Under the pieces are notes generated by a model. It ran no database searches and was not told the origin of the DNA. It saw only the letters and a program-made list of their open reading frames with translations. A DNA stretch of 39,888 bases from Verrucomicrobiia bacterium (lineage in GTDB: Bacteria > Verrucomicrobiota > Verrucomicrobiia > Limisphaerales > UBA11358), in assembly GCA_030038175.1 (NCBI GenBank), contig JASHPN010000152.1, forward strand, positions 1 to 39,888, read 5' to 3'. The position numbers were made by a program, and so were the translations under genes. Of the stretch, positions 15,667-39,017 are shown piece by piece (within the stretch, counting starts at the first letter, position 1; the number at the start of each line of letters is the position of its first letter).

Positions 15667-15669
15667 ACC

Positions 15670-23457: not shown

Positions 23458-24459
23458 TCAATCCGCCGTCTGGAGGCTCCACATGCCGCTGGGAGCGGTG
23501 GACGGGGTGCCCCGGGGGCCGGAGGGAGCGGCGGTCACGGTTTGTTGCCACATGAGCGTTTCGACGTGGCCGTCGTGGAAGGCGTAGTTGAAGCGGTTGC
23601 GTTGCGCCGGATATAATTGCAGGCCTTCGCTGGCGCCGGTGGTTGCCAGGCTCTGCGGAGTTTGCGGGTCGCCGGCCTCGATTTGGTAAAGCCCGGAGCC
23701 TGCGCTTGAATAATACGGGCCGAAACAAAAACTCGGCCAGGAATTTCCTTCGACGTCCTGGCTGTTCGCCAGTTCCACCAGCATGATCGTGCCGGCCGGA
23801 TGGAGGACCACCGATACCGGATAACCAGGCGGACTCATGTCCGGTGTCGTGTCGCCGGTGCTCAACCAACTGATACCCACACCCATAAAGCCCGAGGAGT
23901 AAATACTCGTCAATCCGTTCGCGATGGGCACGTCCCAGCCCGTTCCGTAACCTTGTCCGGCGGCAACCATTTCATAGGTTCTGATGGAAAAGTCATTTTC
24001 CGTCACATAGGTCTCTTTCGTAAAAGTGTCGAACGGACAGGCCAAAATCTTGAGTCCGAGGGGACAGCCAATGGCGTCGGCGCTGACCGAATCATTGCAA
24101 TAAGCTCCGGCCGTCAAAAGAGTCGAGGGGACGCCGCTGCCGCCGCCAATGTAGTTGTAGAGCAGCGTATCCCAACTGACCGTCCCGCTGGACCCATACC
24201 AATCGGCGGGCGGATAGGCATTGTTGTGGTCGTCGCAAAAGAGAAACATGCCGGTGGCCAATTGCTTCATATTGTTCATGCACTGGGCGCGTTGCGCCGT
24301 GATCCGGGCATTGGACAGGACCGGCAGAAGAATCGCCGCCAGGATCGCGATGATGGCGATGACCACCAGAAGTTCGATGAGGGTGAAGGCGGATTGATGA
24401 ACGCGGATTGCGGATGGCGTAGAACAAAATTTTCCGGAGCGCGGCTGTGTGCGCAGCAC
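23458..24459 (-). CDS. Type II secretion/type IV-like pseudopilin (DUF1559-like), copy 1
   Basis: This is about 333 aa if started at GTG 24459. A basic leader ends at QSA, followed by the prepilin helix [20 protein letters not shown] (about 25-46). The prepilin peptidase would cut before the Phe. The helix leads into the conserved [20 protein letters not shown]. The globular beta-rich domain ends with the [11 protein letters not shown] signature seen in H-X9-DG type pseudopilins. No ATG lies between the helix and the repeat at 24436-24593; the nearest candidate start, this GTG, is inside that repeat. The frame stays open through the whole element. Such pseudopilins are multi-copy in Verrucomicrobiota and Planctomycetota and their cargo is unknown. 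Confidence 0.82.
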
Positions 24460-24593
24460 CAGCCGCAGCAGGGTGGCATTCGGAAGATTTGCGCATACGG
24501 CGCGGTTCACCGCTTGCGGAGGTGCTGCGACTGATCCCGCCATGCGGGACACCCGCCGTCGTGGTACTATGGCGCGGCAAGCAGTCGCGCTCC
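24436..24593 (-). repeat. GGAGCGCGG-ended element overlapping a pseudopilin start (family 1)
   Basis: A 158-bp unit bounded by GGAGCGCGGCTGTGTGCGC and GGCAAGCAGTCGCGCTCC. It is closely similar to 28396-28553, with the same internal TGCTGCGACTGATCCCGCC and GCGGGACACCCGCCGTCG stretches. A second, truncated left end (GGAGCGCGGTTG) begins immediately after, as in the tandem at 32574. Its left part contains the only available start codons for the downstream minus-strand pseudopilin. Confidence 0.88.
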
Positions 24594-24629: not shown

Positions 24630-25046
24630 TCATTGGGTTGAACTGACGAGAACAATGAAGCCTCTTTGGCCAAAGGCATATTTTTGCCCGGGCGGCGGGG
24701 GCGGTATCTTGACGTCTGTGGTTCCGGCAAATTCTTCAAAGGTCTGCGGATGCCGATGATTTTTCATTTCCCATCCGACGAGCGCCCGATTGAGCACCTG
24801 AAGTTCGGTCAGGCCCGGTTTGGGGGAAGCGGATGGGGGCGACGGTTGCATCCGGTCGGCCGGGGGTGTCGTTGTTGGCGCGGCAGCGACGGATGTTGCG
24901 GCGGGCGGCGGTTGGGACACAACCGGGGGCGGCGTATTATCTGACTTCCCGCATCCCGCGCCGGCGGTTAAAGCGAGGACAAGGCAAAGCCTTCCCGCTC
25001 CCGGCTTCCATGCGTCGGGCCTGCAAAAATCGAGAATAGCTTTCAT
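24630..25046 (-). CDS. Small proline-rich lipoprotein
   Basis: This 138-aa protein has a lipoprotein signal with lipobox near TAGAGC (Cys about 32). A low-complexity Pro/Ala/Thr linker follows (about 38-78), then a short helical domain ([20 protein letters not shown], then [10 protein letters not shown]) and the terminal [17 protein letters not shown]. The C-terminal part resembles a domain I have seen after pseudopilin-associated regions, with a YAFDxxGYKV-like end, but no named family is claimed. It is on the same strand as the pseudopilin at 23458 and 170 bp upstream of it, with the repeat between them. A conserved 22-bp dyad lies 52 bp before its ATG. Confidence 0.78.
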
Positions 25047-25098
25047 GCGGACGACTGTCTGGATGTGCTAAAGAATAGCGCCAAATAGCATTCAATCA

Positions 25099-25120
25099 AA
25101 GTAGTGAAAATTGACGACAA
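25099..25120. promoter_or_regulatory. TGTCGTCAA-type regulatory site 1 (one half conserved)
   Basis: The minus strand reads TTGTCGTCAATTTTCAC, matching the left half and centre of the 22-bp dyad found at four other promoters; the right half (GACA) is not conserved. It lies 52 bp upstream of the lipoprotein ATG at 25046. Confidence 0.5.
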
Positions 25121-25130
25121 TTGCGTGGGC

Positions 25131-25370
25131 GCATCTCAATTTTTGACCAGGAAAAGAGGTGGAAGATGCCGCCCCTGACGGGGCTCGAGATTTGCGTGGG
25201 TTATTACTACAAAGATGTCGCGCCGACGGCGCTGGCAGTTTCCCATTAACCGTCCTATCGCCAGGTGCGAGCCCCGTTCAGGGGCGGAATAATTGTAAAA
25301 AACCGGGCAAAATGGCGAAAAGCCCCGTCAGGGGCGACATCGTCCGGTTACAGTCGCAAAAGATGGGTAC
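25131..25370 (+). repeat. Four-hairpin element, copy C (family 2)
   Basis: Same order as copy A: GCATCTCAATTTTTGA, GCCGCCCCTGACGGGGCTCG, TACTACAAAGATGTCGCGCC, GCCCCGTTCAGGGGCGGAAT, GCCCCGTCAGGGGCGACATC. The right end (GCAAAAGATGGGTAC) is a degraded inverted copy of the left. It fills most of the gap 25047-25534. After it, 25470-25500 carries a GTCCCGCTCAGAGCGGGACTA palindrome. Confidence 0.85.
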
Positions 25371-25534
25371 AATTATGGATCGGCCGTAACTGCGCAGGTA
25401 TTTTACTGGATCTTTTTGCGCAAGGACGCCCATTGTTTTTCGCTCGAAAATGGACGCTCCCTCACCAGCCGTCGTCCCGCTCAGAGCGGGACTATGGCCC
25501 GGCAGGCGGTCGCGGCTCGGTTGAGGGCGTCCAA

Positions 25535-27523
25535 TTACGGCAGGGGCGGGCCGACGATGGCGCGGTAAAAGCGCACGGAACCGGTCGCGGCAGAATCCTG
25601 CCACGTGAAGGGCATGGCGGGAAAATTAGTGATGAACGCCGCGCTCCATTGCGTCAGATTGGTGGAGACTTGAATTTCGTAATCCGGGCCGGTCTCGCCA
25701 CTGATTTGCATGGCGAATTGCCCGTTGCTGAACGAAACGGCGGTGAGGATGGGCGGAGTGTTGGTCTGCAGCGGAATGGCCAGCTCGGCCACGGTATAGG
25801 CCGGCAAAGTGACGCTCAATGAATTGCCGGACACAGAAATCATGTTGGTCGTTGGTGAAGAAATCGGGATATTTCCGTCCGCGCTCGAGGCGCTGAAATT
25901 GTTGGCGCCGAATTGAATTTGTGTCGCGGAACTTGCGAGATTTGCGTTTGGAATGGAAACGTTCACGGTCTGGCTGCCGGTCATGTTTTCGTTCAAAAGC
26001 AGGACGCCAATATTTCCGCTTTGCTGCACGGCGGCGTGAACGCGCAATCCCGTGGCGCTGGACGTCGCGCTGACAAGCTGGTCGCCGGGGCCGGCCATGG
26101 CGCGCGCCATTTGCACGGCGTAATAAACACAGCCGGGCATCGGCGGACTGTTGCCGCCCAGGTAGGTGTCGGCGCTCATTTCCAGCCAATCTATATTGGC
26201 CACGCCGAGTTCGAGCCAGGTGGCGTAGCTGTCGGCGGCAAACAGCGCGTTGACCGGGCCGGTGATGGGCTCGCCATTTTCGGCATTGGTGAGGCTCCCG
26301 GAATAGCCAAATTCCGTGATGAAGATTTGAACGTTCGTGGTGTCGGCGCGGTAGGCGGCGATTTCGTCCTTCAATCCGGCGGTGGATCCGTCGGTGTGCG
26401 CGCCCGTGCCGTTGACCATCGCCGGGTAAAGCGAAGCAGGGATGGGCAAGGTTTCGACGCCGTTGTCGAGGTCTCCGTTGTAGGGATAGGAATGGGCGAT
26501 GACGAAATCCATGTTGGTGGCGCACTGCATGAGCACCTGGTCGGTCCAGTGCTGTCCATCATAGCTGTCCCAACTGTAATCGTCGGGCGGCGTGGAAACG
26601 ACCGCGCCAATTTTTATGGTGGGATCAACGGCTTTCATCAGGATGGAAAAGTTCTTCAGGCATTTGCCGTAGGTGGCGGGGGAAAGGCTGGCATTGCCGT
26701 AGCGCCGATCGCTGGTGTACGGATACGGCACGGCATAATTGACAGAATAACCGTTGTCGCCGCCGGAGTCGTAATAACCGGAGCCGTAGGTCTCATTGCC
26801 GATTTCCCAGTATTTGATGCCGATGGGCGCTTTGCGGCCGATGCGCAGGAAATTATAGCCATCGTCCGTGGCCAGGGGCGTGGCGGCGCGCAGCATGGCC
26901 CAAAAACCGGCGGTCTTCCAATTGTTGCCCTGGGAATCGGAGCCGAGTGTGACGTCACTGGCCGTGCCGTAAATGTTCGTATTGGCATTGGCGTAGGCGA
27001 CCCAGGCGGCGGCCTCCGGCGGTTCCGCGTTGGTGGTTGGAAAAGTCATGCTGTCATCGGCGCTGCTGCTCCATTTTTGCCCGGAACCAAAATCCACAGT
27101 GATCAGCGCCTGGCATTGGGCATTGGTGAGCACGCGCACCCAACTGCCGAAGTCGCTATCGGTTCCCATGTAGCCATAATTGCCGCTCTCGCCGAACCAG
27201 GGGGACATGCCGTAGCCATTGCCGCTTCCGAGCGCGGGCCGGGACGCTGACCAGTGAAATACGTCCGCATAACCGCCGCCCGGATAGCGCATGACGCTGA
27301 TGCCGCCCTGGCTCAAATCGCCAGGCAAAGCCGAACTGCCAAAGTTATTGGCATAGACGGAGGTATGAATGCCGTACGCGGTGGCCGGCACGACGGCGAG
27401 GTTGCTTGAGACATTGACGGTGACATCGGCCGTGCCGGCGAGCGACGTGAGTTGGGCCAGGAACATCCAAAAGAGCAAGGATGCAATGATTATGGAAGGG
27501 CGGTGGTGTGCGATTGTAACCAT
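25535..27523 (-). CDS. Secreted clan GH-A glycoside hydrolase, GH51-like (alpha-L-arabinofuranosidase type)
   Basis: This 662-aa enzyme has a signal peptide (IIIASLLFWMFLAQLTSLAG). The TIM barrel follows (about 40-470), with the acid/base E244 in WEIGNETYG and the nucleophile E404 in IFITEFGYSG. A beta-sandwich (about 475-585) leads to a C-terminal module with YEIQVSTNLTQWSAAF and RFYRAIVGPPLP. The early stretch VMRYPGGGYADVFHW matches the RYPGG motif of GH51-type arabinofuranosidases and relatives. GH44 or GH39 remain possible. It would act outside the cytoplasm on arabinose-containing plant polymers. I chose the ATG at 27523 (MVTIAHHRPS); its first 34 bases overlap the end of the upstream pseudopilin gene, so the pair is coupled. 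Confidence 0.82.
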   Translation of the reverse strand: MVTIAHHRPSIIIASLLFWMFLAQLTSLAGTADVTVNVSSNLAVVPATAYGIHTSVYANNFGSSALPGDLSQGGISVMRYPGGGYADVFHWSASRPALGSGNGYGMSPWFGESGNYGYMGTDSDFGSWVRVLTNAQCQALITVDFGSGQKWSSSADDSMTFPTTNAEPPEAAAWVAYANANTNIYGTASDVTLGSDSQGNNWKTAGFWAMLRAATPLATDDGYNFLRIGRKAPIGIKYWEIGNETYGSGYYDSGGDNGYSVNYAVPYPYTSDRRYGNASLSPATYGKCLKNFSILMKAVDPTIKIGAVVSTPPDDYSWDSYDGQHWTDQVLMQCATNMDFVIAHSYPYNGDLDNGVETLPIPASLYPAMVNGTGAHTDGSTAGLKDEIAAYRADTTNVQIFITEFGYSGSLTNAENGEPITGPVNALFAADSYATWLELGVANIDWLEMSADTYLGGNSPPMPGCVYYAVQMARAMAGPGDQLVSATSSATGLRVHAAVQQSGNIGVLLLNENMTGSQTVNVSIPNANLASSATQIQFGANNFSASSADGNIPISSPTTNMISVSGNSLSVTLPAYTVAELAIPLQTNTPPILTAVSFSNGQFAMQISGETGPDYEIQVSTNLTQWSAAFITNFPAMPFTWQDSAATGSVRFYRAIVGPPLP

Positions 27524-28431
27524 GGCAAATCCGGGCCGGACGAGGCGTGGGGTTTTTGTATTTCCTGGCCGGCCCCCCCGTAAACGGGATGGTCGCGAAC
27601 CCAGGGATCGCTCCAAACGCGAGTTTCGGCATGGCCATCGCCAAAGGCCAGCGAAGTGCTTTCGCCGTGGTAACTGGCGGGAACGTCCTCCCATTGGGTA
27701 TTGCTATCGAGCAAGTTGACCCAAAAGAATCCGTCATTAATGGAGTCGCCGTGCTCGTCAATCATGACCCAGAGGTCCACCGGCCCGGGAAAGAGCATCT
27801 GGCTGACCGCCTGGTAAAGGCGATACGAGGTAACGCTTCCTCGCGGCCCTGAACCGGAAGTAATATTCCCGTTGCCGTCCGTCGTATTTCCGTTGAGATA
27901 TTCGGATTCCGAGGACCAGCCGTTCATCATGCTGTTCATCGAATAGCTCCGGACGCGTTGTCCAAAAGGCCCGGGCACGGTGTCGCCCGGGCATTTGAAA
28001 ACGGCGCACGTTTTGCCCACGTAATTGCCGAACAAACCCTGGTGGTCGGCCACGAGGCCGGGGCCATTGGTGACCGTGGTCGTTGGGTTCGCGTCCGCGG
28101 CCATATAATTTGCCAGGCCATCCCAACTGGGGCCGGTCTGCCAGGCGCCGGAACTGGTTGAAACGTTGGGAACCAGTTTTCCGCCGCAATCGTCGGGGTA
28201 CATGATCCAGGCATATCCCAATTGGCGCATGTTGTCCATGCATTGGACGCGCTGGGCCTTGAGCTGGGCCGAATGCAGCACCGGCATGAGCAAGGCGGCG
28301 AGAATAGCGATGATAGCGATGACAACGAGGAGTTCGACGAGGGTGAAGGCGGATTGCAGGTCGCGGATTGGGGATGGCGCAGAACAAGATTTTTCGGAGC
28401 GCGGCTGGGTGCGCAGCACCAGCCGCAGCAT
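27490..28431 (-). CDS. Type II secretion/type IV-like pseudopilin (DUF1559-like), copy 2
   Basis: About 313 aa from ATG 28431 (or GTG 28419, the position equivalent to copy 1). The leader ends at LQSA before the helix [20 protein letters not shown] (about 29-50), followed by HSAQLKAQRVQCMDNMRQLG. The globular domain carries AVFKCPGDTV, VMIDEHGDSINDGFFWVNLL and the LAFGDGHAETRVWSD end typical of the family. As in copy 1, the start lies inside a GGAGCGCGG-ended repeat and the linker from repeat to helix is nearly identical. It overlaps the glycosidase gene by 34 bp. The 260 bp to the LamG gene upstream hold the repeat. Confidence 0.84.
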   Translation of the reverse strand: MLRLVLRTQPRSEKSCSAPSPIRDLQSAFTLVELLVVIAIIAILAALLMPVLHSAQLKAQRVQCMDNMRQLGYAWIMYPDDCGGKLVPNVSTSSGAWQTGPSWDGLANYMAADANPTTTVTNGPGLVADHQGLFGNYVGKTCAVFKCPGDTVPGPFGQRVRSYSMNSMMNGWSSESEYLNGNTTDGNGNITSGSGPRGSVTSYRLYQAVSQMLFPGPVDLWVMIDEHGDSINDGFFWVNLLDSNTQWEDVPASYHGESTSLAFGDGHAETRVWSDPWVRDHPVYGGAGQEIQKPHASSGPDLPWLQSHTTALP

Positions 28432-28553
28432 GTTGCCCGCCGGACGACTTGCACATACGGTGCGGTTCATTGCTTGCGGACGTGCTGCGACTGATCCCGC
28501 CGTGCGGGACACCCGCCGTCGTTGTACGATGGCGCGGCAGGCAGTCGCGCTCC
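28396..28553 (-). repeat. GGAGCGCGG-ended element overlapping a pseudopilin start (family 1)
   Basis: A 158-bp unit nearly colinear with 24436-24593, bounded by GGAGCGCGGCTGGGTGCGC and GGCAGGCAGTCGCGCTCC. A further isolated right end (CAGTCGCGCTCC) follows at about 28632-28645. ATG 28431 and GTG 28419 of the pseudopilin lie inside it. Confidence 0.88.
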
Positions 28554-28690
28554 GACGGCGCGCGGCAAACCTTAGACGACCGTAAACCTTGCAACGATCT
28601 AAGATTTCGCCGCTGCGACTGGCTTTCAGCACAGTCGCGCTCCGTCGGATGGTCCTGCGGCCGGCTTCGGTCATAGTCCGGTTATGAGGA

Positions 28691-31393
28691 TTACCGTTGA
28701 ACCCGATAGAACATCCGCGGTGTTCCGGGAACGGGTTGGACGGTAAATGGCGATGTGGCTCCGGGCACGGGCAGGTAAGGTCCCAGGACATTGGTCGCGG
28801 AGACCAGCGCGCCCTCCGGCCAGTGCAGCACCAGGCCGCCGGCGGAGTTGGTGAAGGTGACCAACTCCCCCATGGCCGCAAAATAGATTTGATTAACCGT
28901 CGCGGCGGACAGGGCATTGGTAAAGATGGCGACGTCGCTCATATAAACGTTTGCGCCGTCATAGGCATCGCCCTGCGCCTCAGCCCAGGGATAACCGCCT
29001 CGCCCGAGCAGTATGGGAAAATCATTCTGGTAGCTGGTGCCCGGATAATTTGGATCCATGCTCGGCACGGTGGCGGTGGCGGAAGTCAGCGGGCCATTGC
29101 TGTTGCCCAGGTACATCGTAGCGCTATTGGACGCCGTCCAGACCATGGCCAGGAAGTACCAGCTATTGGTCGGCGGGAACAAGCCGCTGTACCAGTAGTA
29201 GCCGTAGAAAGGCGCGTCGGGATTTTCCGCGCCGCCACCCCAGCGATAACATAATTGGCCCGTCTGGGTCACGGCCCCCGACGAATTGGTTTCCTGGATG
29301 TAGCTCAAACCAAAAGCATTGCCATAGCCGCCATCGTTGTTGTCATCGCGGTTGAAGAGGAAGCCGGGTTCACCCCAGGGATTCTGATTGGGGGCGGGCG
29401 CATAGAGCCAGAGCATCCAGGTCAGGTTCGGGCCATAATTGGTCAAACCGGGAAGGTCCGCCCGGGCAAGGACTCCGTTATTGGGGATAAATAAGCCGAC
29501 ATGGTTGGCCGGGAATCCGGCGTAGGGGGCAGCCGGCTGATCCTGAAACACGCCGCCCAATACATAGTTGGTGCCAACGAGAACCAGATTCGTCGTGTCG
29601 AGGATGGATCCATCGTTGCCGCCAAAATAATCGTGCAGGTTGGTGGTTCCGTAATTTTCATCCAGACGCCAATAACCCCAGGGCGTGTTGCTCAGGACCA
29701 GCGCCGCATAGCCGCCCGCAGCCGGAACCATGGCGCTGAAGGGAACGGGAGCACTGTTGGTGGCCCCGTAGGGATTGGACACGTTAACAAAATAGCTGCC
29801 GGCGGCGCTGGTGGGAATCGGGGCGGTCAAAGTGTAGCTGGTGAAGCTGGCGTTGGTGGATTGGGTCAACAGCAGATTGGTGACGCCACCGCTGATTTGA
29901 TACCAGTTGTACGTAAAGGGCGGTGTCCCGATAACGCTCACATTGAAGGTAAAGGGAGCGGCGCCCGGCACGGAATACCGGCCACCCGGCTGCGGCGCGA
30001 CGACGATAATCGGGGCGCTGGGAGCGGTGATATTGAGATAAATCGGCGCACTGGTGACAATGAGCGTGGATCCCGATTCCCAGCCGTTGGAAAATGCCAG
30101 GTTATAATAACCGCTGTTGGCAATGACCGGACTTGGAAGCGCGAAGGTATTGCTGCCGAGGCCGGCGACATTCAGGGTCGCATTGCTGTTATAGAGCCAT
30201 TCGTACCAGCCGGCGGGCGGTGTGCTGTCTATGTTCGCAACCCCATTAAATGTGATCGGCGTGCCCTGGAAATAGGTGTTGGTAGGATTCGACGGAGTGA
30301 TCGTGGGCGGCTCGACTTCTTCGCCCAAAATCTCGGACCATGTGCTGGCCACGCGGATGCCGTCTATGGTGCAGGGATTGAAATGATTATTTCCATACAT
30401 CCAGACCAGGAGATAATCGAGGTTGACGGTGTTGGTGTAATAATAGATGGCGTCCCATCCAGTGGCGGGATTTGGGCTGGTGTCAACGGCAAAGGCCACC
30501 GTGTCCTGGCCGGAATAATTTTTAACGTCAATCTCCGTTGCGCCTCCAACCGAGGTGATAATCCGGCCCACGAGGATGCCGCCGATCATGTATTGGTCGC
30601 TGCTGTCTGAGGTCGGATAGCCGCTGGTATAACCTTCGCATTGATTGATGACGCCCGAACCGCTGCCGTCACCGGCATAGGCGCGGACATAGTACGGCCC
30701 GCCGGAATCGCCGGGATGTTCCGGATAGCCGGCCTGGCCGAGGGTGCCCGAGGTAATGTACGGCGTATCGCCGATGTCCGCGGAGCCGGTGAGGTTGGTG
30801 TATCCCGTGCCGTCGTAGGTGTTCTTAGCAACGGACCGGGTGACGCCGATGCCGATGAACGCAGAACCGGACGAATTGCCGTTGGCGAAACCGAGGCCAA
30901 ATCCCGCGTCGTCTTCTCCATATCCGTTGGTGCCGCCCACCGTGTAGAAAAAGGAACGTTTGACCCAGCGACAGGCGAAATAATTTGTGCTGCTGGAATT
31001 GAGATGGATCCACGAGGTGGATGCCATTAAGCGGGTGGCCCAGGTTCCGGAATCCCAGCCGTTGGTATTTGGCTGGGGCAGCATCAAACAACCGGGAACC
31101 GTCCACTCCACCGGCAGGTCGGGGTAGATATAATACAAATACTCAAAGGAATCGTTGAGGTTGTTGACCAGAAGGGCATTGGTGGCGTTTGGATCGGCGG
31201 GGTTCACGTTCCAGATGCCGAGCAGGCCGGAGGTGGTAGTTCCATTGCCCTGGCTTTGCAGAGGATAATAACCCTGGGCAACCTGGGTTCCGTTGGTGAC
31301 ATTGTCCCACAGTTCGCGCACGAACAAGGTGGCCCGCGATTGAATTGTGCCGGCGAGAATTAAAAGGATGGAAAGGGCAAAAATACGTTTCAT
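28691..31393 (-). CDS. Large secreted protein with Ig-like and LamG domains
   Basis: This 900-aa protein has a signal peptide (RIFALSILLILAGTIQSRAT). An N-terminal beta-rich domain (about 20-360; WIHLNSSSTNYFACRWVKRS, GGILVGRIITSVGG) is followed by an Ig-like domain (about 365-460, PPTITPSNPT) and a second one (about 465-575, GTPPFTYNWYQISGG). A LamG/concanavalin-like domain (about 580-830) opens with GYWRLDENYGTTN and contains NPWGEPGFLFNRDDNNDGGY. The C-terminus ends TNVLGPYLPVPGA...FYRVQR, like the tail of the glycosidase at 25535. It probably binds carbohydrate or cell-surface polymer; no catalytic motif is seen. I chose the ATG at 31393 because it opens the signal peptide. A 22-bp dyad sits 47 bp upstream. 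It heads the LamG-pseudopilin-glycosidase run. Confidence 0.85.
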   Translation of the reverse strand: MKRIFALSILLILAGTIQSRATLFVRELWDNVTNGTQVAQGYYPLQSQGNGTTTSGLLGIWNVNPADPNATNALLVNNLNDSFEYLYYIYPDLPVEWTVPGCLMLPQPNTNGWDSGTWATRLMASTSWIHLNSSSTNYFACRWVKRSFFYTVGGTNGYGEDDAGFGLGFANGNSSGSAFIGIGVTRSVAKNTYDGTGYTNLTGSADIGDTPYITSGTLGQAGYPEHPGDSGGPYYVRAYAGDGSGSGVINQCEGYTSGYPTSDSSDQYMIGGILVGRIITSVGGATEIDVKNYSGQDTVAFAVDTSPNPATGWDAIYYYTNTVNLDYLLVWMYGNNHFNPCTIDGIRVASTWSEILGEEVEPPTITPSNPTNTYFQGTPITFNGVANIDSTPPAGWYEWLYNSNATLNVAGLGSNTFALPSPVIANSGYYNLAFSNGWESGSTLIVTSAPIYLNITAPSAPIIVVAPQPGGRYSVPGAAPFTFNVSVIGTPPFTYNWYQISGGVTNLLLTQSTNASFTSYTLTAPIPTSAAGSYFVNVSNPYGATNSAPVPFSAMVPAAGGYAALVLSNTPWGYWRLDENYGTTNLHDYFGGNDGSILDTTNLVLVGTNYVLGGVFQDQPAAPYAGFPANHVGLFIPNNGVLARADLPGLTNYGPNLTWMLWLYAPAPNQNPWGEPGFLFNRDDNNDGGYGNAFGLSYIQETNSSGAVTQTGQLCYRWGGGAENPDAPFYGYYWYSGLFPPTNSWYFLAMVWTASNSATMYLGNSNGPLTSATATVPSMDPNYPGTSYQNDFPILLGRGGYPWAEAQGDAYDGANVYMSDVAIFTNALSAATVNQIYFAAMGELVTFTNSAGGLVLHWPEGALVSATNVLGPYLPVPGATSPFTVQPVPGTPRMFYRVQR

Positions 31394-31440
31394 ACGATGG
31401 TTGCGTGTGGCACACCATATCGAAAAGCACCCGAATTTGC

Positions 31441-31462
31441 ATGTCGTCAAAAATAATGACGC
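31441..31462. promoter_or_regulatory. TGTCGTCAA-type regulatory site 2
   Basis: The plus strand reads ATGTC-GTCAAAAATAAT-GACGC, a TGTC-N12-GACR dyad. It lies 47 bp upstream of the LamG-protein ATG at 31393. Confidence 0.6.
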
Positions 31463-31481
31463 TCTGTCGGTATAAAGCGGG

Positions 31482-31578
31482 CGGAAGGAATTGCGCGTCC
31501 GGAAAGGCGGCTGGCATACCAGTTGCGCCGCTGAACGCGGCGCTGACGGCGCAGCGCGCCGTCCCTACCACAAGAATG
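31482..31578. repeat. GGCAGGGACG-family element, partial copy (family 3)
   Basis: It shares AAAGCGGGCGGAAG, CAGTTGCGCCGCT and GCGGCGC...GCGCAGCG...CCGTCCCT with 17634-17772 in the same order. The left inverted end is missing. It ends a few bases before the stop of the minus-strand PEP-CTERM gene. Confidence 0.55.
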
Positions 31579-31589
31579 AGCCGGCCAGT

Positions 31590-32309
31590 TTAGCTCTTGC
31601 GTCCGCGGCGAATCAGCGCCAGCCCGCCCAGGCCGAGGCCCATCAAAGCCAGCGTGCCCGGCTCGGGCACGGATTGGACTAAAATGTCGTCAACATGGAA
31701 CGGCAAATCCGGCGCATAATTGCTGTTATACATGACGCCGAATCCAAATCCATTGAACGAGCCGGCTGCGATGGTATAGGGGATGGTGGCCTGATAAACT
31801 TCTTCGCCGTTGTCATCCTGGATGCCAAGGTCCGTCGTTGAGCTGGAGAAAAAGGTCCCGTAGTAGCCATCGGCACTGTACTGCAACAGGACGCCCAACT
31901 GGAAGTAGCCGCTGCTGCCGACTTCGTTGTCCGGAAGGGAAAAGTCCATAAGAAGGTTGCCGGAATACGCGACCGAAGTGTTTCCGGAGCACCCGGGATC
32001 GATCGCCGATAGAAACGCCGCATTGCCGCCCTCGCTGGGTGCGGCGGCGATCTCATTGAAGGAGCCGACACCCGATGCCCAGGTGATTGAAAGTGAACCG
32101 GATGTGCCTGTGCCGCCCGCGGCGGAAGTGTTGCCAAGGCCGTTAATCGTGCTGGTATCAGCGCTCCATAAGCCGTCGGCGGAGACCGTGCTGCCGGCAT
32201 TGGCAGACCATTGTGAAAAGTCGTTTTCGGTGGTGAAAAGGGTCTGGGCAGGAGCGCTTTGCAACGCGAATGCCACTATGCCAGCCGAGAATAATACAAG
32301 TTTCTTCAT
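31590..32309 (-). CDS. PEP-CTERM sorted secreted protein
   Basis: This 239-aa protein has a signal peptide (KKLVLFSAGIVAFALQSAPA), a beta-rich domain (about 24-205; FSQWSANAGSTVSADGLW, FQLGVLLQYSADGYYGTFF) and a C-terminal PEP-CTERM signal. The signal is SVPEPGTLALMGLGLGGLAL plus a basic RRGRKS end, processed by exosortase. No enzyme motif is visible; it is likely a surface or matrix protein. Codon use and style match the other secreted genes. It is transcribed alone, with a 22-bp dyad 60 bp upstream of the ATG, and is separated from the regulator gene by tandem repeats. Confidence 0.88.
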   Translation of the reverse strand: MKKLVLFSAGIVAFALQSAPAQTLFTTENDFSQWSANAGSTVSADGLWSADTSTINGLGNTSAAGGTGTSGSLSITWASGVGSFNEIAAAPSEGGNAAFLSAIDPGCSGNTSVAYSGNLLMDFSLPDNEVGSSGYFQLGVLLQYSADGYYGTFFSSSTTDLGIQDDNGEEVYQATIPYTIAAGSFNGFGFGVMYNSNYAPDLPFHVDDILVQSVPEPGTLALMGLGLGGLALIRRGRKS

Positions 32310-32369
32310 AGATTTTGCGATGTTTCTGTGAAATCGCTCAATATTATCCCTTTAAATGGCGTTTAAGTC

Positions 32370-32391
32370 ATGTCAACAAAATTGACGACAT
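32370..32391. promoter_or_regulatory. TGTCGTCAA-type regulatory site 3
   Basis: The plus strand reads ATGTC-AACAAAATTGAC-GACAT, a perfect ATGTC-N12-GACAT dyad with a nested GTCAA/TTGAC arm. It lies 60 bp upstream of the PEP-CTERM ATG at 32309. Confidence 0.65.
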
Positions 32392-32413
32392 CCGGGGGCG
32401 GGAGACAAAAATC

Positions 32414-32573
32414 GGAGCGCGGCTGTGTGCGATAGCACCAACCGCAGCGGCACGACGAAGCCTAAACCACCGTACTTCCTGCAAGCATCCCGGACGTGCG
32501 TGCTGCGACTGGTTCCGCAGACGGAACACCCGCCGTCGTTGTACTATGGCGCGGCAAGCAGTCGCGCTCCGGC
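32414..32573. repeat. GGAGCGCGG-ended element, tandem unit 1 (family 1)
   Basis: A 160-bp unit, duplicated head to tail with the next one with about three substitutions. It begins GGAGCGCGGCTGTGTGCGAT and ends CAGTCGCGCTCCGGC. Internal CGACGAAGCCTAAACCACCG is specific to this pair; the right part matches the 24436 and 28396 copies. Confidence 0.92.
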
Positions 32574-32733
32574 GGAGCGCGGTTGTGTGCGATAGCACCA
32601 GCCGCAGCGGCACGACGAAGCCTAAACCACCGTACTTCCTGCAAGCATCCCGGACGTGTGTGCTGCGACTGGTTCCGCAGACGGAACACCCGCCGTCGTA
32701 GTACTATGGCGCGGCAAGCAGTCGCGCTCCGGC
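32574..32733. repeat. GGAGCGCGG-ended element, tandem unit 2 (family 1)
   Basis: The second unit of the tandem, with period exactly 160 bp. Near identity to unit 1 implies a recent duplication. It ends 2 bp before the stop codon of the minus-strand response regulator, so it may serve as that gene's terminator region. Confidence 0.92.
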
Positions 32734-32735
32734 CT

Positions 32736-33413
32736 TTACGGCAAAGTGCTGCGCGGTCGTCCGCCGACAGCGCCCTGGACCTGGGTAAACCGGGCCACGG
32801 CCTGGGAGCGGGAGCGCACGTGCAGTTTTTCGTAGATGCGCCGGATGTAAGTATTTACAGTCGGCACACTGATGTGGAGCAGGTCGGCGATTTCCTTGTA
32901 AAGATAGCCTTTGGCCAGCAATTCGAGAACTTCGCGTTCGCGGGATGACAGTTCCGCAGCTTCGCCGAGTTGTTGGGCGGGCCTTTGAAATGACAGGACA
33001 ACTTTGCGCGCAATGTTGCTGGTCATCGGTGAACCGCCGGCGTGAACCTCTTTGATTGATTCCAGCAGTTCGCCGCGAGGCGTTTGTTTGATCAAATAGC
33101 CGGTGGCGCCCGCCGCCAGGGCGTCGAAGACGTGGTCCACGTCCTCATAAACCGTCAGCATCAGGAATTGGGTGTCGGGCAACAAGGATTTGAGGCGGCG
33201 AACGCCTTCGATGCCGCTCATCCCCGGGAGGTTGATATCCATCAAAACGACGGACGGTTTTTCCGCCGGCAGATGTTCGAGGGCATGTTCCGCGGTTTCA
33301 TGCTGGCCGGCGCATTTAAAGCCCGGAGCATGCCGGAACCAGTCCGCCAGGATTTCATTCGTGGGCGCATCGTCCTCAACTATGGACACGGAAATAGACA
33401 TTCTGCTCTTCAT
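32736..33413 (-). CDS. NarL/FixJ-family response regulator
   Basis: This 225-aa protein has a receiver (about 5-122) with VEDD, D59 in VVLMDINLPGMSG, TVYEDVDH and Lys in YLIKQTPRGE. A LuxR-type helix-turn-helix follows (about 150-215; LSSREREVLELLAKGYLYKE, IADLLHISVPTVNTYIRRIY). The C-terminal Arg/Pro tail is short. It lies 61 bp downstream of the propeller kinase on the same strand and is its obvious partner. A site of the 22-bp dyad family lies in that 61-bp gap, so it may have an autoregulated promoter. Start choice: ATG 33413 or the internal ATG at 33401 (MSISVSIVEDD). I infer that it binds the TGTC-N12-GACA sites. Confidence 0.94.
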   Translation of the reverse strand: MKSRMSISVSIVEDDAPTNEILADWFRHAPGFKCAGQHETAEHALEHLPAEKPSVVLMDINLPGMSGIEGVRRLKSLLPDTQFLMLTVYEDVDHVFDALAAGATGYLIKQTPRGELLESIKEVHAGGSPMTSNIARKVVLSFQRPAQQLGEAAELSSREREVLELLAKGYLYKEIADLLHISVPTVNTYIRRIYEKLHVRSRSQAVARFTQVQGAVGGRPRSTLP

Positions 33414-33438
33414 GATACTCCTGAATGATTTCTTCGTA

Positions 33439-33460
33439 TTGTCGTAATTTTTGATGACAG
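33439..33460. promoter_or_regulatory. TGTCGTCAA-type regulatory site 4
   Basis: The plus strand reads TTGTC-GTAATTTTTGAT-GACAG, a perfect TGTC-N12-GACA dyad in the 61-bp gap between the kinase stop and the regulator start. It lies 25 bp before ATG 33413, or 37 bp before ATG 33401. Confidence 0.6.
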
Positions 33461-33474
33461 AGCAGCGAGATGAT

Positions 33475-36462
33475 TTATGGGCGCAATGGCACGACGAATG
33501 TCACGGACGTTCCAACGCCCGGCGTAGAGCAAATATCGCACGAGCCATGGATTTCCGCAAGGCGGCGGGTCATGTTGGCGAGGCCGTTGCCGCGGGCAAT
33601 TCGGTCTTCTTTGGACCGAATTTTTTGAAGATCGGCCGGGTCAAAGCCGCGCCCATTGTCCGCCACAATGAGGATTAATTTTGACGGCTCCAATTGCAGC
33701 TGCACGCGGACCTCGTCGGCCAGGGCGTGTTTGACGACGTTATGCAAGGCTTCTTTGAAGGCGAGGAACAAATTATGGCGGACGTCGGCGGCGACGGGGA
33801 TGGAGGGCAACTGCAGCGCGACGTCGAGCCGGCAGCGGATTTTCGCCACGCTCAGATATTCGTAAGCGAATCGGCTCAAATAATTCGCCAAACTGTCCAG
33901 CCGGTCGTGGCGCGGATTCACCGCCCATACGATTTCGTCCATCGCCCGCGTCAATTCGCGCGCCGTGCGGTAGATGCGGTCCAGGTTGATGGTGATCGGT
34001 TCGGGCAGGCGGGCATCGCCGTGCACCGATTCGCTCAACATGACGATGCGCGTCAGGCTGGCGCCCAGATCGTCGTGAATGTCCTGAGCAATGCGGGAAC
34101 GTTCACGCTCGATGTCGCGCTGGCGCTCCGCGCGTTCAAGCCGGCGGCGCATCCGCCGCCGCGTATCGAACCAGACTACCCCGCCGGCGGCCAGCACGGT
34201 CGCCAGTCCGCCGCAAACATGGAACCAGGTTGTCTGCCAGAAATAGGGAAGGACCTCAAAGGCCAGGCTCGCGGCGTGTTCATTCCACACTCCGTCATTG
34301 TTGCAGGCGGTCACTTGAAACAGATAATTTCCGGGCGGGACGTAATTGTAAGTGGCCACCCGTTTCGCGCCGGCGTCCACCCAATCGGGCTCCAGATTGT
34401 TCAGCCGGCATTTGAACCGCACCTTTTCGGGCGTGACAAAACTCAGGCCGGTGTATTCGAACTCGATGCGGTGGCGGCCCGGCGGAACTTTAAAGGGCGC
34501 GGCGAACGGATGATCGTCCACCACCATAGACTCGATGACGACCGGGGGCGGCAAAGAGTTTGTTTTCACATTGGCCGGATCAACCGACACCAGCCCCTTG
34601 GCCGTGGCAAACCACAGCCGTCCATCCGCGGTTTTGCAGCCGGCCGATTGCAACCCTTCCGAACACTCCAGCGTCGGCATGCCTTCATTGATGCCGTACG
34701 TCAAAAATGGAACATTGGTAATGCCGCCGTCGGCGCAGCGGTTTAAATCCTCTTCCCGTGCGCGCAAAACGCCGCCGTAGGATCCCATCCAAAAATAGCC
34801 GCGGCCGTCCGATTCGATGTGGCCGATGACGCCGTTGGGCAGGCCTTGCGCCCGGTTGATGACGGAGAATTTTCCGTCCTTGAACCGGTCCAACCCGCCG
34901 CCAAACGTGCCAATCCAAAGCGACTGGTTGTCCCCAAAATGAAGGCACTCAATGAAATCCGAGGAGAGACCGTCGGATTTTGTGAATCGGCGAAATGTGC
35001 CGTCCTGGAGGCGCACCAGGCCGGTCCCCGCGGTGCCGAACCAGAGCGCGCCCGCGTGGTCCCGCGCCAGGGCGCGCACATCGCCGAAGGGCTTGCCGTC
35101 TATTTCATTGAGCTGTTCCAGTTTTCCATGTTGATAGCGCGCCGCGCCCTCCGATGCGCCGATCCAAAGCCGGCCTTCGGTAAATAAGAGAGCCGGAATC
35201 GGCAAAAGAAAATTTGTGAGACCCGGCGCAAAGTCAAATCGGTCGTCCTTCTGCGCAAACAATCCGCCGCCCCAGGTGCCGGCCCAAATTTTGCCCTGGT
35301 GGTCCGCCGCGAGCGACCAGATGTAGGAATTGCGGATGCCCTGGGCGCTGTCGAAGTTCGTCCACTTGCCGTCTTGCAGGCGATACAAGCCGGCTCCTTC
35401 AGTGCCCACCCAGAGCGCGCCGTTGGGCGCCGGCAACACGGAAAGGACGGGACAGCTCCTCCATTTGTCCGGCGGCGAAACCGTCTCCAGATTGCTGGGG
35501 CGGACGAGCACCAGGCCCTCGCCGGTGCCGCACCACAGGTTTTCCTCGCGATCCTCGCAAAGCGAAATCACCCAATCGGACGGCAAGCCGCTGGCGCGGT
35601 CAACGTGCAACGCCGGGGTGTTCGTGGCATGGGGAGAAACCAGCCAGAGGCCGTCATCCGACATGCCGCCGGCCAGTACGCCGAAGGACGTTTCCATGAG
35701 GTTGGCCACGACGCTCCACTGCCACGGCGCGGGGCCCAGGTCGGCCACCCATTTGCCTTCCTTCCATTTGCGGATGCGTCCATCGCAGGCGACCCAAAAC
35801 CCGCCGCCCCGGGCGGGGCAGAAACCCTGCACATAAATATTCGTGAAGATTCCGGGTGTCAACCGGCCGTCCTTGAGCGCGGACACCGCCCCTTCGCGTC
35901 CGACCCAGATCGTCCCATCCTCGCCGCGCGCCAGGGACACAACTTTAGAAACCCGGTCCGAGGGCGGCGAAAGAACTTTGCCGTCCCGCGCGCGCGCCAG
36001 TTCACCCGCTTCGTTCAACAGCCAAATGTCACCGACATTGTCGGCGGTAATCGCGTAAATTTTTCCGCCGCTCCAGTGGGCGTGCAACGGCACCGCGGTA
36101 AATTGGCCGTCCTGGTATTGCGAAACATCTCCGCTTTCCGTGCCAATCCAGAGCGTGCCGTCGGCGGCTTCAAACAGGCTCGTGATGCGGCTGCTGCGCA
36201 ATTCCGGAGTGTTGTTGTCGTCGAAGACCGTGAAGTGGACGCCGTCGAACCGGGCCAGTCCGTTGTAGGTGCCGACCCACAAATAGCCGTCGCGGGCCTG
36301 GACCACGGCGGTGACCTTGTTTTGCGGCAAACCTTGCTCCACCTGCCACGTGCGCGTAAAATAATCCGGCGCGGCGATCGCGGGAAAAAAATCGAAGGCG
36401 AACACCGCGATGAAGGGCGCCAGCCGGCAAAGCAGTTTGCCTGGAGTCGCGTGGAGGAGCAT
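33475..36462 (-). CDS. Two-component propeller sensor histidine kinase (Reg_prop / Y_Y_Y / HisKA_3)
   Basis: This 995-aa inner-membrane sensor has a signal or first helix (about 8-32) and about 12-14 Reg_prop repeats (LWVGTYNGLARFDG, LWIGTESGDVSQYQDG, LWVGTEGAGLYRLQDG, LWIGTFGGGLDRFKDG). These probably form two beta-propellers in the periplasm. A Y_Y_Y domain follows (about 640-725; RIEFEYTGLSF, VPPGNYLFQVTACN), then a membrane helix (about 730-752), HisKA_3 with H796 in AQDIHDDLGASL, and a HATPase domain (FKEALHNVVKHA, DNGRGFDP, GNGLANMTRRL). It lacks the C-terminal receiver/AraC part of Bacteroidetes HTCS; the regulator is a separate gene. In known systems this sensor type binds oligosaccharides. 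ATG 36462 is chosen as the start of the signal region. Confidence 0.93.
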   Translation of the reverse strand: MLLHATPGKLLCRLAPFIAVFAFDFFPAIAAPDYFTRTWQVEQGLPQNKVTAVVQARDGYLWVGTYNGLARFDGVHFTVFDDNNTPELRSSRITSLFEAADGTLWIGTESGDVSQYQDGQFTAVPLHAHWSGGKIYAITADNVGDIWLLNEAGELARARDGKVLSPPSDRVSKVVSLARGEDGTIWVGREGAVSALKDGRLTPGIFTNIYVQGFCPARGGGFWVACDGRIRKWKEGKWVADLGPAPWQWSVVANLMETSFGVLAGGMSDDGLWLVSPHATNTPALHVDRASGLPSDWVISLCEDREENLWCGTGEGLVLVRPSNLETVSPPDKWRSCPVLSVLPAPNGALWVGTEGAGLYRLQDGKWTNFDSAQGIRNSYIWSLAADHQGKIWAGTWGGGLFAQKDDRFDFAPGLTNFLLPIPALLFTEGRLWIGASEGAARYQHGKLEQLNEIDGKPFGDVRALARDHAGALWFGTAGTGLVRLQDGTFRRFTKSDGLSSDFIECLHFGDNQSLWIGTFGGGLDRFKDGKFSVINRAQGLPNGVIGHIESDGRGYFWMGSYGGVLRAREEDLNRCADGGITNVPFLTYGINEGMPTLECSEGLQSAGCKTADGRLWFATAKGLVSVDPANVKTNSLPPPVVIESMVVDDHPFAAPFKVPPGRHRIEFEYTGLSFVTPEKVRFKCRLNNLEPDWVDAGAKRVATYNYVPPGNYLFQVTACNNDGVWNEHAASLAFEVLPYFWQTTWFHVCGGLATVLAAGGVVWFDTRRRMRRRLERAERQRDIERERSRIAQDIHDDLGASLTRIVMLSESVHGDARLPEPITINLDRIYRTARELTRAMDEIVWAVNPRHDRLDSLANYLSRFAYEYLSVAKIRCRLDVALQLPSIPVAADVRHNLFLAFKEALHNVVKHALADEVRVQLQLEPSKLILIVADNGRGFDPADLQKIRSKEDRIARGNGLANMTRRLAEIHGSCDICSTPGVGTSVTFVVPLRP

Positions 36463-36515
36463 CTTTTTATTTTGACAACCGGCCGCCCGGGGCAGCAAGT
36501 CAATTTAACCTTTTC

Positions 36516-36537
36516 GCCTCATGTATTTTGACGACAT
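36516..36537. promoter_or_regulatory. TGTCGTCAA-type regulatory site 5, between divergent genes
   Basis: The minus strand reads ATGTC-GTCAAAATACAT-GAGGC, matching the dyad family except in the last half. It lies 53 bp from the kinase ATG (36462) and 65 bp from the GH31 ATG (36603), so it could serve both. Confidence 0.6.
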
Positions 36538-36602
36538 GACGAATGCGCGTGAGTCGGCCAAATTGAACAAATATTGTCCGCTCAAAGAAATTCCGGATTG
36601 AC

Positions 36603-39017
36603 ATGATTGCCCTGAACAAAACCACGATCGCGAGTTTCCTGGGCCTCGCCGCCACAGCAGCCGCAGCAGCCACAGCGGCCATGGCCGCCACCTCGCCGCT
36701 GCTCAATGAGCCGGTGGATATCAGCCCTGATTTTCGCGATTTTGCCAATACCTATTTTCTGGCCGACCAGCTTGCCGATTTTGACCCCGCCACCGGCCAG
36801 GGCCAAATCCAGTGGCAGCGCGCCCAGTATTTCACCCGGCAGGCCTTCGACAACATGCTGGCGGGCATCAAGCCGGTGGGCCCGAACGAATTTCCTGACA
36901 CGGAATATGCCGCCAACCCAACCCTGCCCTTTTCCATTCAGTTCGTTTCGCCGCGCACGATCCGGCTGCGCATCACCAGCGGCCCGCAATTTCACCGGTC
37001 CGGGGAGGAACTCATGCTCGATGGCCCGGTGCCGGAGGATCATTCGTGGAACTATCAAAAAATCCCCGGTGGCTACCGGTACACGGGCGCGTTCGGTTCG
37101 GTGGCGATTCTGGAAAATCCGTGGCACATCGAGATTCGCGACGCCACTGGAAGGTTGTTGACCCAAACCGATCACGCGTCCGACAACGCCACGACGTTTA
37201 CGCCGATTCTGCCGTTTTCCTTCGTGCGCCGTTCCTCGGATTATTCGCGCAGCATGGACGCGGTGTTCACGCTTTCGCCGGGCGAAAAGATTTTCGGCTG
37301 CGGCGAATCCTTCACCGCGCTGGACAAGCGGGGGCAAAAGGTCGTGCTCTGGACCACCGACGCCAACGGCATCCAGAACCAGCGAATGTACAAGCCGATC
37401 CCATTTTTCATGAGCAGCCGCGGCTACGGCATGTTCGTCCACACCAGCACGCCCATCACCTGCGATTTCGGATATTCGTTCAGCGGCGTCAGTTCGCTGA
37501 TGGCGGGCGACGATGAACTGGACCTGTTCATCTTTCTGGGCACGCCCAAAGAAATCCTGGGCGAATACACCGCGCTGACGGGGCGATCGCCGATGCCGCC
37601 GTTGTGGTCGTTCGGCCTGTGGATGAGCCGCTGCACCTATAACAGCGAAAAACAGGTGCGCGACGTGGCCGCTCAATTGCGTGAAAACCGGATTCCCTGC
37701 GATGTGATTCACCTGGACACCGGATGGTTCGAAACCGATTGGCGCTGCGATTATCTATTTTCAACGAACCGCTTTCCCACGCCCCGGCGGATGATTTCCG
37801 ATTTGAAGGACGAGGGTTTCCACATTTCCTTGTGGCAATTGCCGTATTTTGTCCCGAAAAATTCCCTCTTCGACGAATTGGTCACGGACGATCTGGTGGT
37901 GCGCGACGGCAAAGACAACCTGCCGCAGGAAGACGCGGTGCTGGATTTCTCGAATCCGCGGACCGTCACGTGGTACCAAAGCCATCTCGCGACGCTTCTG
38001 AAAATGGGCGTGGGCGCCATCAAAGCGGATTTCGGCGAAGCGGCGCCGTTGAACGGAATATACGCTGACCGGCGCTCCGGATTTTACGAGCACAATCTCT
38101 ATCCGTTGCGCTATAACAAGGCTGTCGCGGACATTACCCGGCGCGTTACCGGCGAAAACATCATCTGGGCGCGCAGCGCGTGGGCGGGCAGCCAGCGTTA
38201 TCCCATTCATTGGGGCGGCGACGCCGAAAGCACGGACCAGGGTATGTCGGCCGAATTGCGAGGCGGCCTTTCGCTGGGCTTGTGTGGCTTTTCCTTTTGG
38301 AGCCATGACATCGGTGGTTTCACGGCCAGTTCCGTCGCTGCCATGGACAAAAACCTTTACTTGCGCTGGCTGGCCTTTGGCATGCTGACGTCGCACAGCC
38401 GTTGCCACGGCGAGGCGCCCAAAGAACCGTGGCACTACGGCGCGGATTTCATGGACAAATTCCGCGCGATTGACGATTTGAAATACGAGCTGATGCCCTA
38501 CATCTATGCGCAGGCCAAAGATTGTTCCGAACGCGGGCTGCCGATGCTGCGGGCGCTATTCATCGAGTTTCCCGGTGATCCCGGCTCATGGCAAATTGAC
38601 GATGAATACATGTTTGGCTCGGACATGCTGGTCGCGCCTTTGATGCACGAAGATGCGACGGGGCGAAATGTCTATTTGCCGCCGGGGAACTGGGACGATT
38701 TTCAGACGGGCAAAAGCTATTCCGGGGGGTGGAATCAAATCGAGGCCGGCGAAATCCCCGCCGTCATTCTGGTGCGCGACGGCTCGGCGATTCCCGAAAT
38801 TAACCTGGCGCAATGCACCCGGGACATGGATTGGTCAAAACTCGCATTGCGCGTTTTCGCCAAAAATACGCCGACCGCCGGCGGTCTCGTTTACTTGCCG
38901 GGCGAGACGGAATTGCATCATCTGACGCTGCAATCGGAAAATAGCGCCTTTCAATTGGTCAACGATCCGCTGGCGGGAAAAGTTGCGTGGACAATATCCG
39001 ACGGCGAAGTTCATTGA
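36603..39017 (+). CDS. Secreted GH31 alpha-glycosidase (alpha-xylosidase-like)
   Basis: This 804-aa enzyme has an Ala-rich signal peptide (FLGLAATAAAAATAAMA), an N-terminal beta-sandwich (about 60-310; GCGESFTALDKRGQKVVLWT), a TIM barrel (about 325-660) and C-terminal beta domains. The nucleophile is D476 in AIKADFGEAAP and the acid/base is D540 in HWGGDAEST, both in the YicI-like context (KxDFGE, HWGGD). WSFGLWMSRCTY and HLDTGWFE are also alpha-xylosidase style. GH31 includes alpha-glucosidases, but the KADFGE context favours xylosidase, i.e. release of xylose from xyloglucan. It is divergent from the propeller kinase across a 140-bp region carrying a regulatory dyad, and followed 2 bp later by the next gene. 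Confidence 0.93.
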   Translation: MIALNKTTIASFLGLAATAAAAATAAMAATSPLLNEPVDISPDFRDFANTYFLADQLADFDPATGQGQIQWQRAQYFTRQAFDNMLAGIKPVGPNEFPDTEYAANPTLPFSIQFVSPRTIRLRITSGPQFHRSGEELMLDGPVPEDHSWNYQKIPGGYRYTGAFGSVAILENPWHIEIRDATGRLLTQTDHASDNATTFTPILPFSFVRRSSDYSRSMDAVFTLSPGEKIFGCGESFTALDKRGQKVVLWTTDANGIQNQRMYKPIPFFMSSRGYGMFVHTSTPITCDFGYSFSGVSSLMAGDDELDLFIFLGTPKEILGEYTALTGRSPMPPLWSFGLWMSRCTYNSEKQVRDVAAQLRENRIPCDVIHLDTGWFETDWRCDYLFSTNRFPTPRRMISDLKDEGFHISLWQLPYFVPKNSLFDELVTDDLVVRDGKDNLPQEDAVLDFSNPRTVTWYQSHLATLLKMGVGAIKADFGEAAPLNGIYADRRSGFYEHNLYPLRYNKAVADITRRVTGENIIWARSAWAGSQRYPIHWGGDAESTDQGMSAELRGGLSLGLCGFSFWSHDIGGFTASSVAAMDKNLYLRWLAFGMLTSHSRCHGEAPKEPWHYGADFMDKFRAIDDLKYELMPYIYAQAKDCSERGLPMLRALFIEFPGDPGSWQIDDEYMFGSDMLVAPLMHEDATGRNVYLPPGNWDDFQTGKSYSGGWNQIEAGEIPAVILVRDGSAIPEINLAQCTRDMDWSKLALRVFAKNTPTAGGLVYLPGETELHHLTLQSENSAFQLVNDPLAGKVAWTISDGEVH

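Follow-up and report, generated by a model that had tools for sequence, protein, structure and literature searches.

A conserved 20-bp dyad as the predicted operator of a LuxR/NarL-type regulator and its local carbohydrate regulon in Limisphaerales

Genes and dyads at the locus

The stretch of DNA analysed here (the window) is 39,888 nt long and constitutes contig C290 (JASHPN010000152.1) of a 5.39-Mb Limisphaerales genome in 431 contigs (assembly GCA_030038175.1). It carries genes for a sensor kinase and a separate response regulator amongst genes for secreted proteins and glycosidases, together with five 20-bp dyads of the consensus TGTCGTCAA-WW-TTGACGACA; nothing comparable is found elsewhere in the window. 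Judged from the sequence, this dyad is very probably the operator of the neighbouring LuxR/NarL-type regulator, which would use it for the class II activation of a local regulon. The genes concerned are listed below (GH, glycoside hydrolase; ORF, open reading frame; HTH, helix-turn-helix).

23458..24510, minus strand: second pseudopilin-like DUF1559 protein
24630..25046, minus strand: small lipoprotein (Cys after LTAGAG)
25535..27466, minus strand: secreted glycosidase-like protein, GH51-like only by a weak match below cut-off
27490..28431, minus strand: pseudopilin-like DUF1559 protein; start uncertain, with a longer ORF from 28917
28691..31393, minus strand: large secreted Ig/LamG-like protein (Ig_3 below cut-off; LamG via homology to locus L188)
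31590..32309, minus strand: PEP-CTERM secreted protein (PF07589, 28.8 bits, cut-off 20.7; TIGR02595, 26.8 bits, cut-off 16)
32736..33401, minus strand: response regulator, with a receiver (EDD, LMDIN, LTVYED, LIKQ) and a GerE/LuxR HTH
33475..36462, minus strand: sensor kinase, with Reg_prop propeller, Y_Y_Y, HisKA_3 and HATPase_c
36603..39017, plus strand: GH31 protein, nearest to YicI-type alpha-xylosidases (NF007940, 497 bits, cut-off 606)

The two regulatory proteins have the composition of a LuxR/NarL-type two-component system: the regulator joins a receiver with the phospho-acceptor Asp to a GerE HTH, and the kinase has both the HisKA_3 His and a HATPase_c domain, all of these scoring above cut-off. 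The window regulator stays below cut-off with all 25 curated regulator models shown. The kinase ORF runs from a TTG at 36498, with an ATG at 36462, and the HisKA_3 His is His808 of the ORF from 36498; no receiver or DNA-binding (HTH) domain match was found in this protein by the domain scan.

The five dyads are given below with their matrix scores, the accompanying -10 hexamers (offsets are counted from the dyad centre) and the E values of a dyad-plus-promoter model, both matrix and model being derived from relatives as described later.

Site 1, 25100..25119, minus strand: dyad TGTCGTCAATTTTCACTACT, 22.6 bits, before the lipoprotein gene; -10 TATTCT at 25072-25077 (offset 32); model match (R1) at 25071-25120, minus strand, E 0.056
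Site 2, 31442..31461, minus strand: dyad CGTCATTATTTTTGACGACA, 23.8 bits, before the LamG/Ig protein gene; -10 TATGGT at 31414-31419 (offset 32); model E 2.3e-4
Site 3, 32371..32390, minus strand: dyad TGTCGTCAATTTTGTTGACA, 23.1 bits, before the PEP-CTERM gene; possible -10 TAATAT at 32341-32346 (offset 34) or GATAAT (offset 32); model E 0.16
Site 4, 33440..33459, minus strand: dyad TGTCATCAAAAATTACGACA, 24.8 bits, in the kinase-regulator gap; -10 TATCAT at 33412-33417 (offset 32), overlapping the ATG at 33413; model E 0.042
Site 5, 36517..36536, plus strand: dyad CCTCATGTATTTTGACGACA, 19.0 bits, between the divergent kinase and GH31 genes; weak -10 CAAATT at 36559-36564 (offset 32) on the GH31 side; model match (R1) at 36519-36558, plus strand, E 0.062

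The dyad centre is 63, 58 and 71 bp from the start codon at sites 1-3, and 36 bp at site 4, where the second ATG is 48 bp away; at site 5 it is 76 bp from the GH31 start and 64 bp from that of the kinase. All eight matches to TGTCGTCAAWWWTNNNGACA with up to three mismatches in the window fall within the five sites, compared with 0.52 expected and a maximum of three in 100 shuffles. A first-pass annotation, made from the sequence of the window, had placed five sites within 1 bp of those listed and had seen no equal site before 25 kb. Both statements stand, as a matrix free of the window's own sequence ranks the five first, at 19.0-24.8 bits, with the sixth place scoring 9.2. The same annotation took site 1 to keep one half and sites 2 and 5 to be partial; site 1 is instead a weak dyad with both halves recognisable (AGTAGTGAA / TTGACGACA), and site 5 is the weakest of the five.

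Promoter geometry and proposed mechanism

The spacing between the dyad and the promoter was analysed using 72 intergenic sites of at least 15 bits, read in both directions as 143 distinct segments. A TAnnnT hexamer occurs at offset 31 in 16 of these oriented segments and at offset 32 in 34, the mean for other offsets being 1.1, and 48 of the 72 sites have such a -10 hexamer at one of these two offsets; in the window this applies to sites 1, 2 and 4, at offset 32 each time. Of the 50 promoters so defined, 45 face a called gene start no more than 300 bp away, with the window lipoprotein gene, which was missing from the gene list used, counted among the five without one. If the hexamer starts at -12, the dyad is centred near -43, which is the geometry of a class II activator: a dyad of about 20 bp, at a fixed distance from the -10, overlaps the -35 region. 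Both the dyad and the -10 are conserved, whereas the bases between and around them are little conserved.

At the promoters of the regulator genes themselves, TAnnnT is found at offset 31-33 in 24 of 35 cases, and an in-frame start codon lies 5-10 nt past the chosen hexamer in 23 of the 35, 20 of these having the hexamer at 31-33. Transcription starts about 7 nt after a -10 hexamer, and therefore the regulator mRNA would have a leader of only a few nucleotides, or none. Since the promoter so often ends almost at the start codon, a nearly leaderless mRNA combined with positive feedback is predicted. In the window the regulator probably starts at 33401, this being the likelier start because the upstream ATG at 33413 overlaps the -10; the gene may additionally be read from the kinase transcript. 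Three genes encoding relatives of the 25535 protein have an ATG 43-45 bp from the dyad centre (L194 13983, L205 16757 and L213 2366), and these too are predicted to be nearly leaderless.

The closeness of dyad and start codon could alternatively be read as a sign of repression, in which the regulator bound at its own gene would prevent transcription, or read-through out of the kinase gene: at site 4 the first ATG is 36 bp away from the dyad centre, and the training orthologues have their assigned starts at distances of 19-56 bp. However, a fixed -10 at 31-32 bp with the dyad over the -35 is how a class II activator promoter is laid out, the regulator and target promoters have the same spacing, and the likelier start codon is often further downstream. 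Repression therefore seems unlikely, and the version limited to the regulator's own gene was dropped, the -10 there being spaced as in the target promoters.

Activation could then proceed as follows. A membrane kinase with an outer propeller would sense a hemicellulose-derived oligosaccharide and, as its domains suggest, phosphorylate the separate regulator, a dimer of which would bind the 20-bp dyad; with the dyad near -43 over the -35 region and the -10 at 31-32 bp, binding would be expected to activate transcription. The regulon predicted in this genome has five promoters within 12 kb, and would include the GH31, regulator, PEP-CTERM, LamG/Ig (with pseudopilin and glycosidase) and lipoprotein (with second pseudopilin) genes. 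The first-pass annotation had likewise proposed an autoregulated carbohydrate regulon with separate sensor and regulator and with surface or secreted outputs. These proposals are upheld as predictions: the dyad upstream of the regulator gene and the separate domains are seen, and the substrate and the binding by the regulator are what we infer. Its suggestion that the kinase gene is also a target of site 5 is not borne out, as no -10 was found towards the kinase and the site points at GH31.

Conservation across the genome and in relatives

Across the whole of the own genome, the pattern TGTCRTCAAWWWTN3GACA matches without mismatch only at sites 3 and 4. Counting against uniqueness, the exact half-site TGTCGTCAAWWWT is found eight times outside the window; the second half is almost complete in one of these copies, on C85, which is however inside a 247-codon open frame. 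Allowing up to two mismatches in the pattern gives 28 matches outside the window, at 27 places, as against seven for the reversed pattern; 23 of these places were fetched, of which those of at least 11 bits are mostly in long open frames, and only one, on contig C191, has a TAnnnT at the right distance. The dyad-plus-promoter model was built from 44 sequences of relatives, on sequence alone, picked for having TAnnnT at 31/32 and at least 17 bits. At E<=10 it has eight matches in the 5.39 Mb, seven of them at the five window sites and one at C191:6439. The first-pass annotation had named randomly scattered genome-wide matches as the result that would tell against a regulon, and this is not the distribution observed.

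Homologues of the regulator at E<=1e-40 are present in 95 of 117 relatives searched, and amongst the best 80 of 524 loci in a wider collection almost all named carriers are assemblies of Verrucomicrobia, with Limisphaerales / subdivision 3 accounting for many. The matrix used throughout was built on 28 regulator promoters of relatives, of which 25 are distinct, selected because they scored at least 12 bits with a window-derived matrix. A dyad lies within 130 bp upstream of the conserved regulator N-terminus in 35 of 46 homologues of at least 62% identity, window included, three further homologues having been left out as this N-terminus was not found; dyads also precede PEP-CTERM, LamG and glycosidase genes, such that the motif is carried by orthologous promoters, its absence from which the first-pass annotation had named as a second result that would tell against a regulon.

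In 601 kb, comprising the window and 36 stretches from relatives, there are 90, 77 and 62 sites at thresholds of 13, 16 and 19 bits, the 90 including the training sites of the matrix. The means were 4.4, 0.8 and 0.2 for ten dinucleotide shuffles of the same DNA, and 4.1, 0.5 and 0.1 for 20 column-permuted matrices. These counts bear on whether the dyads might be copies of some mobile element or repeat, or AT-rich inverted repeats arisen by chance. The sites are short and similar to one another, and the excess of two-mismatch matches outside the window over the reversed control would fit such an origin; however, the conservation centres on dyad and -10, shuffled sequences and permuted matrices give few sites, and 81 of the 90 fall between genes in DNA that is 86% coding. 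The sequence evidence already largely excludes this explanation, which we consider extremely improbable.

Within the genus, 12 of 49 genomes carry the strict palindrome TGTCRTNANNNNTNAYGACA, at 20 places in all, compared with two for the reversed control, and 12 of the 20 share a contig with a close regulator homologue. A match to the dyad-plus-promoter model at E<=0.01 is present in 20 of the 25 genus genomes whose best listed regulator homologue has at least 66% identity, and in one of 23 others (G035); 18 of the 20 matching genomes had supplied sequences to the model, whilst G024 and G036 had not. In two relatives, single contigs (G021:C69 and G041:C174) have at least about ten and at least about seven sites, respectively, spread across tens of kilobases, and therefore a local regulon can exceed the size of that in the window.

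A number of observations weigh against assigning the dyad to the neighbouring regulator as a class II operator. No TAnnnT is present at 31/32 in 24 of the 72 sites, including window sites 3 and 5, and the 44 promoters of the model had been selected for having one. For eleven of the 46 homologues the 130 bp upstream contain no dyad: in L042 one lies upstream beyond this distance, in L043 and L044 dyads precede only other genes of their contigs, and none was seen for the others. Eight of the 20 strict palindromes are off the regulator's contig, and of the seven of these that were read, four are inside a called gene (L215, L218, L220 and L221). Of 29 regulator neighbourhoods read, the window being one, 13 have the kinase directly upstream in the same orientation; two more have a kinase adjacent on the other strand, and in two the regulator is at a contig end. 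Many of the regulator promoters come from close relatives, and hence are not independent. The matrix test is strong, though not fully blind, because the orthologue sites were first found by a window-derived matrix.

Sister clade, target genes and known systems

The own genome holds 23 homologues of the regulator, itself included, and the cognate protein of a class II operator might be one of the 22 paralogues rather than the neighbour. The promoter on C191, which the model recognises too, has letters belonging to a sister clade. However, the sites in relatives are situated around and upstream of orthologues of the window regulator, and loci of homologues below 60% identity are poorer in sites, with 25, 10 and 6 at 13, 16 and 19 bits in 590 kb (43 loci), as opposed to the numbers given above for 601 kb. 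The paralogues are also without the dyad at their promoters: their surroundings, 76 kb in all, have a single place of 13.1 bits, which is not at a regulator promoter. A paralogue thus has a low probability of being the cognate protein, and the neighbouring regulator is retained as the predicted one.

The recognition helix of the clade with this dyad is mostly of the PTVNTY type. Homologues with the recognition helix ISYETVHTY instead carry the palindrome TGTMACCANNNNTGGTGACW, and the sister-clade site, TGTMACCA-N4-TGGTGACW, has the same spacing to the -10; in the best 80 of 524 loci, all ten sister palindromes have TAnnnT at 31/32. The nine that were examined are each followed by a probable RNA that has a conserved terminator, ending GTTCTCATTG-GGCCGGAGTAGTGTCCGGCC-T-run, and that is often found just after the sister-clade regulator gene. 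The loci of this probable small RNA are L087, L099, L101, L105, L113, L116, L122, L137, L139 and L143, and L260-L274, with the copy in the own genome at G000:C191:6439-6560 (L027 1501-1620). This copy is the sole additional model match described above; the nearest homologue in the same genome (L149, 59%) is on another contig. A stricter pairing of dyad and terminator retained seven loci, C191 included, with an RNA of 65-165 nt, and missed six terminator-bearing loci (L089, L107, L122, L123, L137 and L141). Fifteen of the 49 genus genomes have the terminator core, each in exactly one copy, and in at least eight of the 15 it is no more than about 0.3 kb away from a homologue of the regulator; in 12 it has an upstream palindrome with TAnnnT at 31, ten of these with ACCA. 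No Rfam family matched the probable small RNA in the 11 loci searched.

These data suggest a broader scheme, to which we would give an even chance. A Limisphaerales family of LuxR-type regulators would have kept one class II geometry, with the letters of the inner half-site changing together with the recognition helix; the PTVNTY-type clade (TGTCGTCAA) would act with propeller kinases on local hemicellulose regulons, with its regulator made from nearly leaderless mRNA, and the sister ISYETVHTY clade (TGTMACCA) would run a conserved single-copy small RNA in a Gac/Rsm-like wiring.

The suggestion of a hemicellulose substrate, which we infer, comes from the target genes. A Pfam scan of 20 proteins of relatives, mostly encoded directly behind a site, gave matches for 11 and none for nine; the matches were GH5 (three), GH2 (two), GH3, GH51, alpha-L-fucosidase (GH29), GH130, a sodium:solute symporter and LamG. 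GH31 proteins of 67-75% identity to that of the window are encoded in three of the 36 stretches from relatives, with a 72% fragment in a fourth, and are beside the kinase in two. Together GH5, GH31, GH2, GH3, GH51 and GH29 resemble what we take to be a xyloglucan set, and GH130 presumably a mannan one. In the window, the domains of the GH31 protein score above cut-off, but the enzyme is called alpha-xylosidase-like because its score against the curated alpha-xylosidase equivalog NF007940 stays below the threshold. The product of the gene behind site 3 has the PEP-CTERM motif at its C terminus. The pseudopilin and glycosidase-like genes are downstream of the LamG/Ig gene of site 2. The glycosidase-like protein has no Pfam or PDB sequence match, and its match to NF051901 is weak (25.6 bits, cut-off 625). 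A partner of the lipoprotein, 48% identical over 58 aa, is encoded behind a dyad in L212; the second pseudopilin gene is perhaps read together with the lipoprotein gene.

Verrucomicrobia are degraders of plant and algal glycans, and how they switch on genes for polysaccharide use is little described. The predicted operator resembles LuxR-type class II promoters (the lux box, which is centred at -42.5, and those of GacA/UvrY, NarL and DevR) in its 20-bp dyad, GerE-type HTH, centre near -43 and fixed -10, and differs from them in the half-site TGTCGTCAA, the propeller-kinase partner, the often nearly leaderless regulator gene and the hemicellulose targets. AbfS/AbfR is reportedly the name of a Cellvibrio japonicus system, and XygS/XygR that of one in Ruminiclostridium cellulolyticum. 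According to titles cited in PMC10766802, these are alike in exerting two-component control over xylan or xyloglucan genes. Their hosts belong to other phyla, and the likeness is one of function, as given in titles.

The sensors of the hybrid two-component systems (HTCS) of Bacteroides have a propeller and Y_Y_Y. These systems also resemble the present one in using a sensor kinase and regulator for polysaccharide-use genes, and parts of PMC11253607 describe AraC-type hybrids in this role; according to passages of PMC10766802, genes of this kind are commonly controlled by hybrid two-component systems, extracytoplasmic function (ECF) sigma factors and catabolite repression. Unlike HTCS, in which kinase, receiver and AraC-type HTH form one chain, the kinase and regulator here are two proteins, and DNA binding is LuxR-type. 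No SusC/SusD match was found among the 27 ORFs scanned, all of them in the window, and there is no report of this operator among the matches listed in the open literature. A defined operator with fixed geometry would allow regulons, and their likely substrates, to be predicted from DNA in uncultured genomes, and it ties propeller kinases, PEP-CTERM proteins, DUF1559 pseudopilins and glycosidases into one testable prediction.

Several further features of the sequence were noted. The C-terminal domain of about 72 aa of the glycosidase-like protein (25535-25753, residues 648-719), which ends in FYR-x3-GPPLP or alike, is common to otherwise different secreted proteins at roughly 45-57% identity (in L187, L189, L190, L194, L198, L200, L202, L203 and L213), and is perhaps a sorting or anchoring domain. 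A label, GH51L, given to the proteins of over 1000 aa of L194 (14012-17833), L198, L200, L202 and L213 (2458-5679) and to the 994-aa protein of L203 was wrong, and was dropped because these match the window protein only in this domain; that of L194 is GH5 by Pfam. Elsewhere in the window, positions 12914-17628 hold a separate cluster of a PAS-type kinase, a receiver-only protein and a hybrid kinase with receivers, with no dyad of the regulator type. Between the regulator and PEP-CTERM genes, at 32430-32735, two near-identical tandem copies of about 160 bp can be made out by eye.

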